From IMG/VR virus record IMGVR_UViG_3300037342_000011, positions 1-64,000 of that record: DNA of 64,000 bases; one strand, 5' to 3'. Shown here in pieces: positions 54,390 through 57,415 of the stretch. The position numbers and the translations under genes are program-made. The DNA comes from a virus. Below the pieces are notes generated by a model, which worked only from the letters and a program-made list of their open reading frames with translations, searched no databases and was not told where the DNA came from. Numbering within the stretch: position 1 is the stretch's first letter; each line of letters opens with the position of its first letter.

Positions 54390-54725
54390 TTATTTGTGGT
54401 ACTTGGACGCTGCCAAGAAGTGACCGGTGATCGTCACGCCGTTGACGGTAGGAAGAACGCCGCGCAACCGAGCCGACTTGTTGGATGCGATGACTGCCGT
54501 ACATACCTGGTTTGCAAGCGTGCCTACCGAGGTGATCGTTCCATTGGCGTTGAGCAACGCAGCCACCACCTGGGCGTCCGGCACGAAGTTACAAGCTGCA
54601 ATGACCGCCGCCGTGACTTGCTGGGCCGTCGGAACCGTCAATGACGGCAACACGATGCCCGAGCCAGAACAAGCCGCCAGCGCGAGTGCCGCACCGGCCA
54701 GCAGCATCATTTTAATCTTCCGCAT
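54390..54725 (-). CDS. Outer-membrane-type lipoprotein
   Basis: 111 aa. Basic start MRKIKMMLLAGAALALAACS gives a lipobox (LAAC), so it should be lipidated and exported. The rest is helical with NGTITSVGTLANQVCTAVIA. Lipoproteins next to lysis genes can act as outer-membrane spanins, but this one is not clearly such. Confidence 0.75.
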   Translation of the reverse strand: MRKIKMMLLAGAALALAACSGSGIVLPSLTVPTAQQVTAAVIAACNFVPDAQVVAALLNANGTITSVGTLANQVCTAVIASNKSARLRGVLPTVNGVTITGHFLAASKYHK

Positions 54726-54743: not shown

Positions 54744-56507
54744 TTAAGCGGTCAACGCCGCCACGTCACTCCGAAGTTGATCCGCGCTGAAGCCCTCTGG
54801 AGTGAGGGAGTTCCTCAACGTCTCAAGACTGATGTAAGCGATTGCTTCGTCGCAATTCGCCGTATAATACTCCGGGGTCATGGCGTGGAGTCTACCCCAC
54901 GTTACAACGATGAAATTCCCGGCGCTGTTGCGCCCAACGCACGGAACATAATGCCCCCCGTCGGTGCCGACGCCGAGGGTGACTGTCCAAGGCTTACCCG
55001 CGTTGAATTGGTCCTCCGCGTCGCTCGGTAAGCGCAGCCCCACGCCCGCAGCCCCCGTTAGGTAGGCCGCGAGCGCGAGCTGGCCTACGTCGCCAGGGAG
55101 GAGCGCAACGTAGCTGTCAATTAGATGTCGTCGCCCCAAGGCGTCCAGCACGCCGGTCTTTTGGCGATAACTAGCGGCCACCTGCATATCGGTTCCTTGG
55201 TCGCTAGTCGGGTCCGACGGGGAAAAGCCTGTGCAAGCAGCGTAATCTGAGAGCACCGACGATACATCGAACAGTACTCGGTTCGCTGCCTCGTGGTTGA
55301 ACACCATACTCTCGTGAGCAGCGCCCGCCCAAACGCAGTTATGGACAATAATTCCGTTTGCTATATACCATCTAGAATCAGTAGAAAGGTCATATACGTG
55401 GGTTCCAAGATACCTTTGAACGTTGATGTCAACTATGCAATCGGTCTCTACGAGGCCGGGGAAAGCATTGAAGAAATTGGAAGGAAGTTGGGGGTCAGTG
55501 GAATGACCATAGATAGACGGATGCGAAGTGCTGGCTACAATACGCGAAGGAGCAGCGCCAGTTACGGACAAATCCATCGAGATAGACGATATGGGGATGT
55601 CAGTGCCGCAATCAAAATGTACGTTGATGGGGCTACTCTTTCTGATTCCCATCAAGCCTTTGCCATACCAAGAAGGCATTTGGAAAAAGCTATTATTGCG
55701 GCTGGAGAAACTTTGCGCACTCAGGCTCAATCTCTTGGTTTGCGGTATGCCCACATGACTGTAAGCGAGCGACGGTCTGTAACCGCCTATGCCAATATCG
55801 CCAAGCGAGGGCGCAAGGCTTCTGAAAAATCCTTGCATAAACGCGCATGTACGATGGAAAGGACTCTTCAGCTGGCGAGTAGGGCTGATCTTTTGTTTTG
55901 CATGTGGATGGCGCAAAGAGGCATCAAGTTCACTCCTCAAAAAGCTGTCGGCCCGTACAACATCGACTGTGCTATTGATGAACTTCTCGTCGCCGTGGAG
56001 ATCAACGGCGATTGGCATTATTTTCCTGGTAAAACCGACACTGAGAGAAAGAGACGAGAATATGTCATCAACGCTGGTTGGCACATTATCGATATTAACA
56101 TTGCATCCAGAGGGGTTGGAAAAAAGTGGAAGTGGCTTCGACCCGCAAGTGCCGACAAGGTAGTCATCATGCTTGAGGAATTTCGCTCGGATAAAACCGC
56201 GCTTAGTAAGCACAGCGTGATTGGGGGTGACGGTGAGCCGCTTTCCTGAAGCAGTTTTTATTTCAACCACCGGCCCATTGTAGGATGCTCGATAAGCGCC
56301 AGTGATATTTGACGCGCTTACGTTTGTTCCTTCGACAAGACAACATCCATATTTGTCGTTTGCCAACATCCCCCAATCCTCGCCGACCGCGTAATGGCCG
56401 AACTCGGGCGGGGGCACCGGCAACGCGGGGGCGTTGAAATACGCGCCGAATTTAAGGCTGACCGCATCTGGTCGAGCGGGGGCCTTTCCGAGTTTGAAGC
56501 GGTTCAT
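54744..56507 (-). CDS. Cysteine-peptidase-like protein interrupted by an intein
   Basis: 587 aa precursor, 252 aa after splicing. N-extein ends DKYGC (residue 55); the intein is residues 56-390; the C-extein begins CVWAGAAHES (Cys391, Cys56 after splicing). Cys391, H519 in TDGGHYVPCVG and the later VVTWGRL fit a papain-like Cys/His triad. The intein thus sits at the putative nucleophile. Following splicing, the product resembles phage-encoded cysteine peptidases. It lies between the holin-like gene and the lipoprotein gene. Confidence 0.85.
   Translation of the reverse strand: MNRFKLGKAPARPDAVSLKFGAYFNAPALPVPPPEFGHYAVGEDWGMLANDKYGCCLVEGTNVSASNITGAYRASYNGPVVEIKTASGKRLTVTPNHAVLTKRGFIRAKFLKHDDYLVGTCGSKPLPLFSNPSGCNVNIDNVPTSVDDIFSSLSLSVGFTRKIMPIAVDLHGDEKFINSTVDVVRADSFLRSELDASLRHPHAKQKISPTRQLKSPFHRTCAFMQGFFRSLAPSLGDIGIGGYRPSLAYSHVGIPQTKRLSLSAQSFSSRNNSFFQMPSWYGKGLMGIRKSSPINVHFDCGTDIPISSISMDLSVTGAAPSRIVASTSHPSIYGHSTDPQLPSNFFNAFPGLVETDCIVDINVQRYLGTHVYDLSTDSRWYIANGIIVHNCVWAGAAHESMVFNHEAANRVLFDVSSVLSDYAACTGFSPSDPTSDQGTDMQVAASYRQKTGVLDALGRRHLIDSYVALLPGDVGQLALAAYLTGAAGVGLRLPSDAEDQFNAGKPWTVTLGVGTDGGHYVPCVGRNSAGNFIVVTWGRLHAMTPEYYTANCDEAIAYISLETLRNSLTPEGFSADQLRSDVAALTA
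55338..56342 (-). other. 335-residue intein with Hint splicing domains
   Basis: N-terminal block A CLVEGTNVSA, block B GKRLTVTPNHAVLTKRG (T-x-x-H) and KFLKHDDYLVG; C-terminal VYDLSTDSRWYIANGIIVHN with penultimate His and terminal Asn, followed by Cys+1. All catalytic residues for protein splicing are present. Intein frame residues about 70-310 carry no LAGLIDADG or HNH motif and look like antisense translation, because the endonuclease is on the other strand. Confidence 0.9.
55398..56249 (+). CDS. Vsr-like homing endonuclease encoded antisense within the intein
   Basis: 283 aa from GTG 55398, with GAAAGG at 55384-55389 eight nt upstream. Two tandem helix-turn-helices (residues 11-46 and about 66-105), a basic linker, then a Vsr/EDxHD-type PD-(D/E)XK nuclease with D190 (NIDCAIDE), E201 and H207 (VAVEINGDWHYF), and W228 (NAGWHIID). 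Domains are complete without gaps. The last 20-25 codons are antisense to intein block B. Related enzymes are known from group I introns and fractured inteins. Confidence 0.85.
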   Translation: MGSKIPLNVDVNYAIGLYEAGESIEEIGRKLGVSGMTIDRRMRSAGYNTRRSSASYGQIHRDRRYGDVSAAIKMYVDGATLSDSHQAFAIPRRHLEKAIIAAGETLRTQAQSLGLRYAHMTVSERRSVTAYANIAKRGRKASEKSLHKRACTMERTLQLASRADLLFCMWMAQRGIKFTPQKAVGPYNIDCAIDELLVAVEINGDWHYFPGKTDTERKRREYVINAGWHIIDINIASRGVGKKWKWLRPASADKVVIMLEEFRSDKTALSKHSVIGGDGEPLS

Positions 56508-56761: not shown

Positions 56762-57415
56762 TTACAGTTTAGATTCGATTTCGCTAAGAAGCGACGGTGA
56801 CGCTGGGGCGGCTTGAGCGGGGGGTGCTCCGCTCCACTCCGCCGCGAGGTTGGGGCCGGAATAGAGGTTCAAGTCCAAATTGCCGGCGGTCCCCGGCAAC
56901 CGCCCGGTCTCGCTGTACTGCCACAGCCAAGGCGTCACCCAGCTTGCTTGTGCGTGGGGGGTCGGGCCGTACTGCGGCAGCCACAAACGGTGCGAGCCTA
57001 AGAAAGCGTCGGCGTGCGTTCCAAGTATGTCTTTCACCCGGTTGCCGGAGTACAGTACGAGCTTCCGGCCAAGTTTCAAATCGGCAATCTTGAGGAACTG
57101 AATGGCTTGGTCGATAGACATGTTGCTTGCCGGGTTGTCCTCAAAATCCAACGCCATAAGTGTGGAGGCGTCTGGGTTGGCGTGGCTAAAGAACTCGTCA
57201 ACCTGGGCTTGAACGTCCTGGCCGGTGTTGAACGTGTAAGCCCCCCACAGCAAGCCTGCCGCGAGCGCGGCTTGGCGTCGCTCCGCATACGCGGGGTCGG
57301 CTATGTTTGCCCCTTGGGTTGCTTTATGAATGACGCCGAGAACCCCGGCGGCTTTCAAAGCCGCAAAGTCGGTGATTGTATCGCCGTGGTAGATGTCGAT
57401 TACGTTTGGAGTCAC
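56762..57415 (-). CDS. GH25-type endolysin
   Basis: 217 aa. VIDIYHGDTITDFAALKAAG, VIHKATQGANIADPAYAERR, MALDFEDNPASNMS with the catalytic Asp/Glu pair, LVLYSGNRVKDILG and LWLPQYGPTPHAQASW follow the GH25 muramidase barrel. No signal peptide, so it needs a holin. Cuts the glycan strand; the M15 peptidase cuts the peptides. Confidence 0.9.
   Translation of the reverse strand: MTPNVIDIYHGDTITDFAALKAAGVLGVIHKATQGANIADPAYAERRQAALAAGLLWGAYTFNTGQDVQAQVDEFFSHANPDASTLMALDFEDNPASNMSIDQAIQFLKIADLKLGRKLVLYSGNRVKDILGTHADAFLGSHRLWLPQYGPTPHAQASWVTPWLWQYSETGRLPGTAGNLDLNLYSGPNLAAEWSGAPPAQAAPASPSLLSEIESKL

Follow-up and report, generated by a model that had tools for sequence, protein, structure and literature searches.

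A phage intein with a Vsr-like endonuclease gene predicted on its antisense strand

Can one stretch of phage DNA encode an intein on one strand and, on the other, the endonuclease that spreads it? This question is raised by a minus-strand gene at 54744..56507 of the window, i.e., the whole 64,000-nt stretch analysed here (positions 1 to 64,000 of the 71,465-base IMG/VR virus record IMGVR_UViG_3300037342_000011). The gene contains an intein (55338..56342), opposite to which a first-pass annotation, made from the sequence alone, had recognized a plus-strand gene for a 283-aa protein (55398..56249). Judging from comparative sequence analysis, the locus very probably represents a phage intein with an antisense Vsr-like endonuclease encoded on the same DNA, the enzyme most likely spreading the insert.

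Two genes on one stretch of DNA

The minus-strand host gene is open over its entire length and encodes a 587-aa precursor (252 aa once spliced). The embedded intein (335 aa, C1 to HN335, followed by a +1 Cys) matches Pfam PF14890 (Intein_splicing, E 2.8e-12) as well as both intein end models (TIGR01443 and TIGR01445). It carries the complete signature of cis-splicing inteins, i.e., block A with the N-terminal Cys (C1, followed by LVEGTNV), block B with the TxxH motif (TPNH), block F (HVYDL) and block G (NGIIVHN, its C-terminal HN being followed by C). The frame running uninterrupted through a full intein had thus been annotated with exact coordinates. In the predicted structure, the Hint ends reach 93–98 in the predicted local distance difference test (pLDDT) and the segment of residues 83–143 is fairly confident, while residues about 148–292 (~145 residues) are predicted to be disordered; the best structural match retrieved with Foldseek is the Mtu RecA intein (prob 1.00), indicating a Hint fold. 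The central part had been described as free of any endonuclease motif. This holds in so far as a Pfam scan of the sense centre matched no endonuclease domain model; the centre is not devoid of conserved motifs, since FHGD (residues 115–118) is conserved in the sense protein beyond the requirement of antisense coding.

The plus-strand open reading frame (ORF) starts with GTG, ends opposite the block A/B region and lies wholly within the intein, codon-on-codon antisense to the minus frame. Its product matches the nuclease models REase_MTES_1575 (4e-7) and DUF559 (3e-5) and several helix-turn-helix (HTH) models of Pfam. A first HTH unit (HTH_23/HTH_38; residues about 11–44 with helices 11–19, 24–31 and 35–44; 55428..55529) and a second HTH-like unit (residues about 68–101 with helices 68–76, 81–87 and 92–101; 55599..55700) precede a Vsr/EDxHD-like nuclease domain (residues about 162–234; 55881..56099), which contains the conserved residues E164, D190 and E201. 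The AlphaFold model (89 sequences; mean pLDDT 90.9) comprises the HTH helices followed by a mixed alpha/beta nuclease domain. Foldseek comparison of this model with the PDB ranked Vsr (1cw0, 1vsr) first and the catalytic domain of I-Bth0305I (3r3p) third, all with prob 1.00 at modest E-values. In case of the endonuclease family profile, the I-Bth0305I catalytic domain was matched with E 5e-6 and Vsr with just 0.09, and a phmmer search of the PDB with the window endonuclease alone gave no match. E164, D190 and E201 are conserved in 99–100 % of 141 endonuclease families. The annotation of a complete Vsr-like endonuclease is therefore borne out by the open frame, the nuclease profiles and the Vsr/I-Bth0305I fold.

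Occurrence in phages

When 50,697 phage records were searched by tblastn with the plus-strand protein as query, 128 records matched. In the capsid-annotated records inspected, the match lies opposite a gene termed "head morphogenesis" or "MuF-like minor capsid", or opposite an unnamed gene, and in none of these records is the antisense gene annotated as endonuclease. The respective phages infect Gordonia, Salmonella, Pseudomonas, Vibrio, Klebsiella, Haemophilus, Idiomarinaceae, Rhodococcus and others. In the record of Escherichia phage Snoke the family intein is annotated and the endonuclease is not, and a Rhizobium match is a free-standing gene. All 21 fully read genes have the antisense frame codon-aligned and covering almost the whole intein. 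Alignment of all 19 antisense proteins revealed no stretch conserved enough for scanning, so that subgroups were used instead: scans of IMG/VR with four subgroup profiles added 187 loci. Single-protein scans of viral contigs (P0001, P0002) produced no matches, and a scan of genome contigs retrieved one relative, its endonuclease likewise being antisense.

At 198 of 210 loci, the endonuclease is antisense to an intein with both ends in one unbroken sense frame. Nine of the remaining 12 have the intein N-terminus on the opposite strand and a frame open as far as seen, the C-terminus lying beyond the contig end or having escaped the profile (in several cases it is visible in the same frame); the last three are a locus with a sense frameshift (L044) and two without intein. 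The non-redundant set comprises 143 inteins at 95 % nucleotide identity. No endonuclease in the sense frame of an intein was found among the relatives gathered. Since ~143 distinct phage inteins share the layout, which also recurs once in combination with an unrelated endonuclease (see below), it constitutes a real and recurrent kind of overlapping mobile element, which is largely unannotated.

Three loci deviate in other respects. The family intein of Rhodococcus phage REQ3 (L012, 2081–3859) is shortened, starts with Ala instead of Cys and faces an antisense endonuclease that is shortened too; it is possibly decaying or belongs to an alternative splicing class. Longer inteins (363–367 aa) with longer antisense frames are present in L158 and L160.

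Selection on the two strands

In the codon register of these loci, sense position 1 corresponds to antisense position 3 and vice versa, so that substitutions reveal which of the two frames is protected. Comparison of 23 independent pairs gave, for sense positions 1/2/3, 1041/739/2484 differences in the exteins, 252/106/425 in the intein N-block and 50/41/143 in the C-block, all highest at the sense wobble position, as compared to 1336/450/773 in the intein centre, where position 1 exceeds position 3, i.e., variation falls on the antisense wobble position, in every one of the 23 pairs. The splicing blocks are thus protected as minus-strand protein and the centre as plus-strand protein. The plus frame, intact in the window, is hence also under selection in the family, and the constraint on both strands assumed in the first-pass annotation is supported by these patterns together with the choice of start and Shine-Dalgarno (SD) codons described below.

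Over a short stretch (55989..56000), both strands appear to be constrained at the same 12 nt, which encode V198-A-V-E201 of the nuclease site on the plus strand and L/F115-H-G-D118 of the intein on the minus strand (codon counts from 141 families). While most conserved endonuclease residues show free use of synonymous codons, this is not so for V198-A199-V200-E201, where GTC (87/87), GCC (134/139), GTG (124/126) and GAA (114/141), respectively, prevail. With these codons fixed, F115-H116-G117-D118 is fixed on the other strand; the sense motif may serve splicing, or the DNA itself may be the target. The second zone of overlap (56170..56249) places the last endonuclease codons opposite block B, correctly foreseen in the first-pass annotation. 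Here, T, N and H of the sense protein are fixed to 95–100 %, and the conserved endonuclease tail (YxVIRGxG) is largely a shadow of the TPNH of block B.

Start signals within the splicing blocks

The endonuclease had been proposed to possess its own ribosome-binding site and a GTG antisense to the His of HVYDL. Both were located: an SD sequence (AGAAAGG, 55383..55389, plus strand) lies 8 nt before the GTG and overlaps the antisense of block F codons, and block F (55386..55400, minus strand) reads on the other strand as the end of the SD sequence and the GTG start, exactly opposite the His codon. Likewise, in most families the endonuclease starts with an ATG or GTG that is reverse-complementary to the His codon of block F, and the block F codons for V-Y-N/D-L yield GAGG or AAGG on the antisense strand. 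An SD-like sequence is present in 98 of the 109 families with a clear block F. The block F Leu is encoded by CTC or CTT in 102/109 families (34 % expected from the exteins of the same genes) and the His by CAT in 90/103 (42 % expected), neither count being reached in 200,000 simulations.

In 45 of 108 families, as compared to 5.4 expected, the region upstream of the endonuclease start carries, opposite block G (NGIIxHN) or immediately following it, an antisense −10 element that outscores 95 % of synonymous recodings (p<0.05). Its sequence is often TGnTATAAT, placed at a constant distance of 48 nt, also in genomes of 60–70 % GC.

Empty sites, allele replacement and a probable second origin

Twelve intein-less relatives of the window host protein (L219–L230; 45–57 % identity) align across the junction, and comparison with them places the window intein immediately ahead of the conserved Cys in (D/C)CVWAGAAHE. 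The N-extein (coding part 56343..56507, minus strand) accordingly ends with NDKYGC and the C-extein (54744..55337, minus strand) starts with CVWAGAAHE at this Cys.

The MuF gene of Gordonia phages is empty in Shivanishola and carries an intein of the Angelicage, Keitabear or Nordenberg type in related phages. These inteins share the identical site between VIN and CRCT, and the exteins are 95–98 % identical, as compared to 27–37 % identity among the inteins (Keitabear type, 35 %). The empty gene of Shivanishola shares 97.6 % extein identity with that of Angelicage, and phage Vivi2 is a further intein carrier. The Angelicage and Keitabear inteins represent two Vsr-like types, while the Nordenberg type has another antisense enzyme. 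Such a pattern of presence/absence and of alternative alleles, as read from the genomes, is what would be expected of homing.

No match to the Vsr-like profile was obtained with the Nordenberg-type intein (L212, Gordonia phage Nordenberg), the antisense frame of which codes for a LAGLIDADG-like enzyme with the motifs VAAFIDGEG and YLVIKRHHADLL. In tblastn searches, the protein matched homing endonucleases of Caulobacter phages and the DNA endonuclease of Cyanophage PP (2e-6), the latter being in turn a weak match to LAGLIDADG_1 (0.003); direct Pfam support for LAGLIDADG is weak (0.26). Between Nordenberg and Barsten (L231), differences at sense positions 1/2/3 are 51/6/16 under the antisense ORF, mostly falling on the antisense wobble position, as compared to 12/17/34 in the remaining intein and 6/3/31 in the N-extein; 15 of 196 endonuclease residues differ, as compared to 55 in the sense protein. 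Probably, a broad class of phage inteins represents two-strand genes, in which blocks F and G double as SD sequence and start (and as promoter in many), VAVE and FHGD share 12 nt, and the layout arose at least twice, with Vsr-like and LAGLIDADG-like enzymes meeting at one Gordonia site.

Alternative explanations

That the plus ORF is a by-product of sense codon bias and encodes nothing is scarcely credible. Spurious antisense frames are most often of register 0, such frames are frequently open if the gene is GC-rich, and a frame at least 75 % open is present in 17.7 % of extein control segments; however, the same applies to 98.6 % of the 143 inteins, those of AT-rich phages included, and when the sense intein was recoded synonymously 20,000 times with local codon usage, an antisense frame of this length stayed open just once. 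For the family, this explanation was rejected on account of the excess of open frames over exteins, the wobble pattern, the preferred SD and start codons, the profile matches and the confident nuclease fold of the product. A split (trans-splicing) intein or fractured gene, with the endonuclease between two separately translated halves, is highly improbable as well. Fractured genes of this kind, split inteins with Vsr-like (EDxHD) endonucleases between the halves, were reportedly described by Dassa et al. in 2009. They resemble the present locus in endonuclease superfamily, phage hosts and a separate endonuclease gene between intein blocks, and the N and C parts of L044 are indeed in different frames (possibly a split intein or a sequencing error). 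In the window, by contrast, the intein is contiguous, with the sense frame crossing the opposite-strand endonuclease gene, and the ends share one unbroken frame as they do at the 198 loci. Moreover, the 25,154 central codons from 132 families include not one TTA, CTA or TCA of the endonuclease frame (555 expected), each of which would correspond to a sense stop, although this zero is partly built in, the families having been chosen for both intein ends in one frame. The continuous sense frame and the missing central stops led to rejection of the split form for the family.

An endonuclease that is degenerate or has a non-homing function (e.g., in regulation), the intein now being inherited vertically, is unlikely, albeit not to the same extent. 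In its favour, the catalytic His varies, endonuclease activity is a prediction, and the window lineage offers no related intein allele indicative of recent homing; on the other side stand purifying selection on the antisense protein, the near-invariant E164, D190 and E201, and, in Gordonia phages, the presence/absence and allele replacement observed at a single site.

Several points weigh against a homing intein with an antisense endonuclease as the preferred assignment. The His of the EDxHD motif (H207) is present in 73 % of the 141 families and is missing from the Salmonella group; the antisense −10 element of the window is not significant (p 0.15) and the start codon is GTG; L044 has its sense frameshift; and the window intein is without close relative, the codon-position test having been run on homologues, so that selection on the window copy is deduced from the family. 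The sequences as such support the intein anatomy, the nuclease homology and fold, the zone-wise selection (in relatives), the selection on start and SD codons and the presence/absence polymorphism; splicing, antisense expression, cleavage and homing are predictions.

Comparison with known systems

Canonical mobile inteins (PI-SceI, Mtu RecA) share with the window intein the Hint blocks A, B, F and G, insertion at a conserved active-site residue and presence/absence polymorphism, but carry a LAGLIDADG or HNH domain in frame instead of an antisense gene with start and SD sequence inside block F. EDxHD endonucleases have been reviewed, I-Bth0305I being an EDxHD homing endonuclease of a group I intron (PMC3943268). 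I-Bth0305I (3r3p) resembles the window endonuclease in its catalytic domain, by profile and fold, and in having extra DNA-binding modules; unlike the latter, it is intron-encoded and does not overlap a protein-splicing element. ShiLan-type insertions in phage methylases are same-strand, out-of-frame HNH insertions without splicing element (PMC11855218). They have in common with the present case a hidden endonuclease over an uninterrupted host frame, occurrence in phages and a homing-like distribution, and differ in using an alternative frame of the same strand, HNH enzymes and no splicing element, as opposed to an antisense gene and a full intein.

In the searchable literature, a scope outside which preprint 10.1101/2025.01.02.630785 falls, no description of an antisense endonuclease in an intein was found, and the words "antisense" and "opposite" are absent from Kelley 2016 and two papers of the Gogarten lab. 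The view that no contiguous intein of this layout is known thus stands for that literature; the window intein is no single case, however, but belongs to a large family. PMC11855218 cites work by Gosselin, Arsenault and Gogarten (2025) on actinobacteriophage inteins of "non-canonical architecture" beside a remark on overlapping frames. As this preprint, known from its citation, may cover the Gordonia cases, priority for these is uncertain.

Host gene and genomic neighbourhood

The host extein matches phrog_19005 (E 3e-22). The Cys/GGH/W pattern of the host protein is suggestive of a papain-type cysteine protease, the putative catalytic Cys of which directly follows the intein, so that formation of the active site would require splicing. 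A match of phrog_15127 ("head protein") to residues 67–198 of the host protein falls on the intein rather than on a capsid protein; function labels taken from intein-bearing members can therefore mislead annotation. The neighbouring ORF at 56762–57415 reads like a GH25-type lysozyme (endolysin) and the small ORF at 54390–54725 appears lipoprotein-like. With these two ORFs the region looks like a lysis/tail module.

Proposed mode of action and implications

Translation of the sense strand would yield the host protein together with the intein, which would be excised by its Hint ends (residues 1–65 and 293–335). The intein middle would be mostly a disordered linker needing just freedom from stops, except for the conserved FHGD. 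Antisense transcription, in many relatives presumably from the −10 element opposite block G, and translation from the start opposite the block F His would provide the EDxHD/Vsr-like endonuclease as a free protein with HTH repeats for DNA binding. This enzyme may cut intein-less alleles, whose repair would copy the element in. As the endonuclease would be expressed separately from translation of the host protein, homing could be timed apart from splicing.

As a natural example of protein coding in sense and antisense over ~850 nt, the family is open to testing, and in over 100 non-redundant homologues strand-specific selection can be read from codon position. It shows that motifs listed in databases as conserved in inteins can owe their conservation to an opposite-strand gene. 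Furthermore, Hint domains appear to be tolerant of very long disordered inserts, and the antisense genes represent a new source of EDxHD-like homing enzymes.
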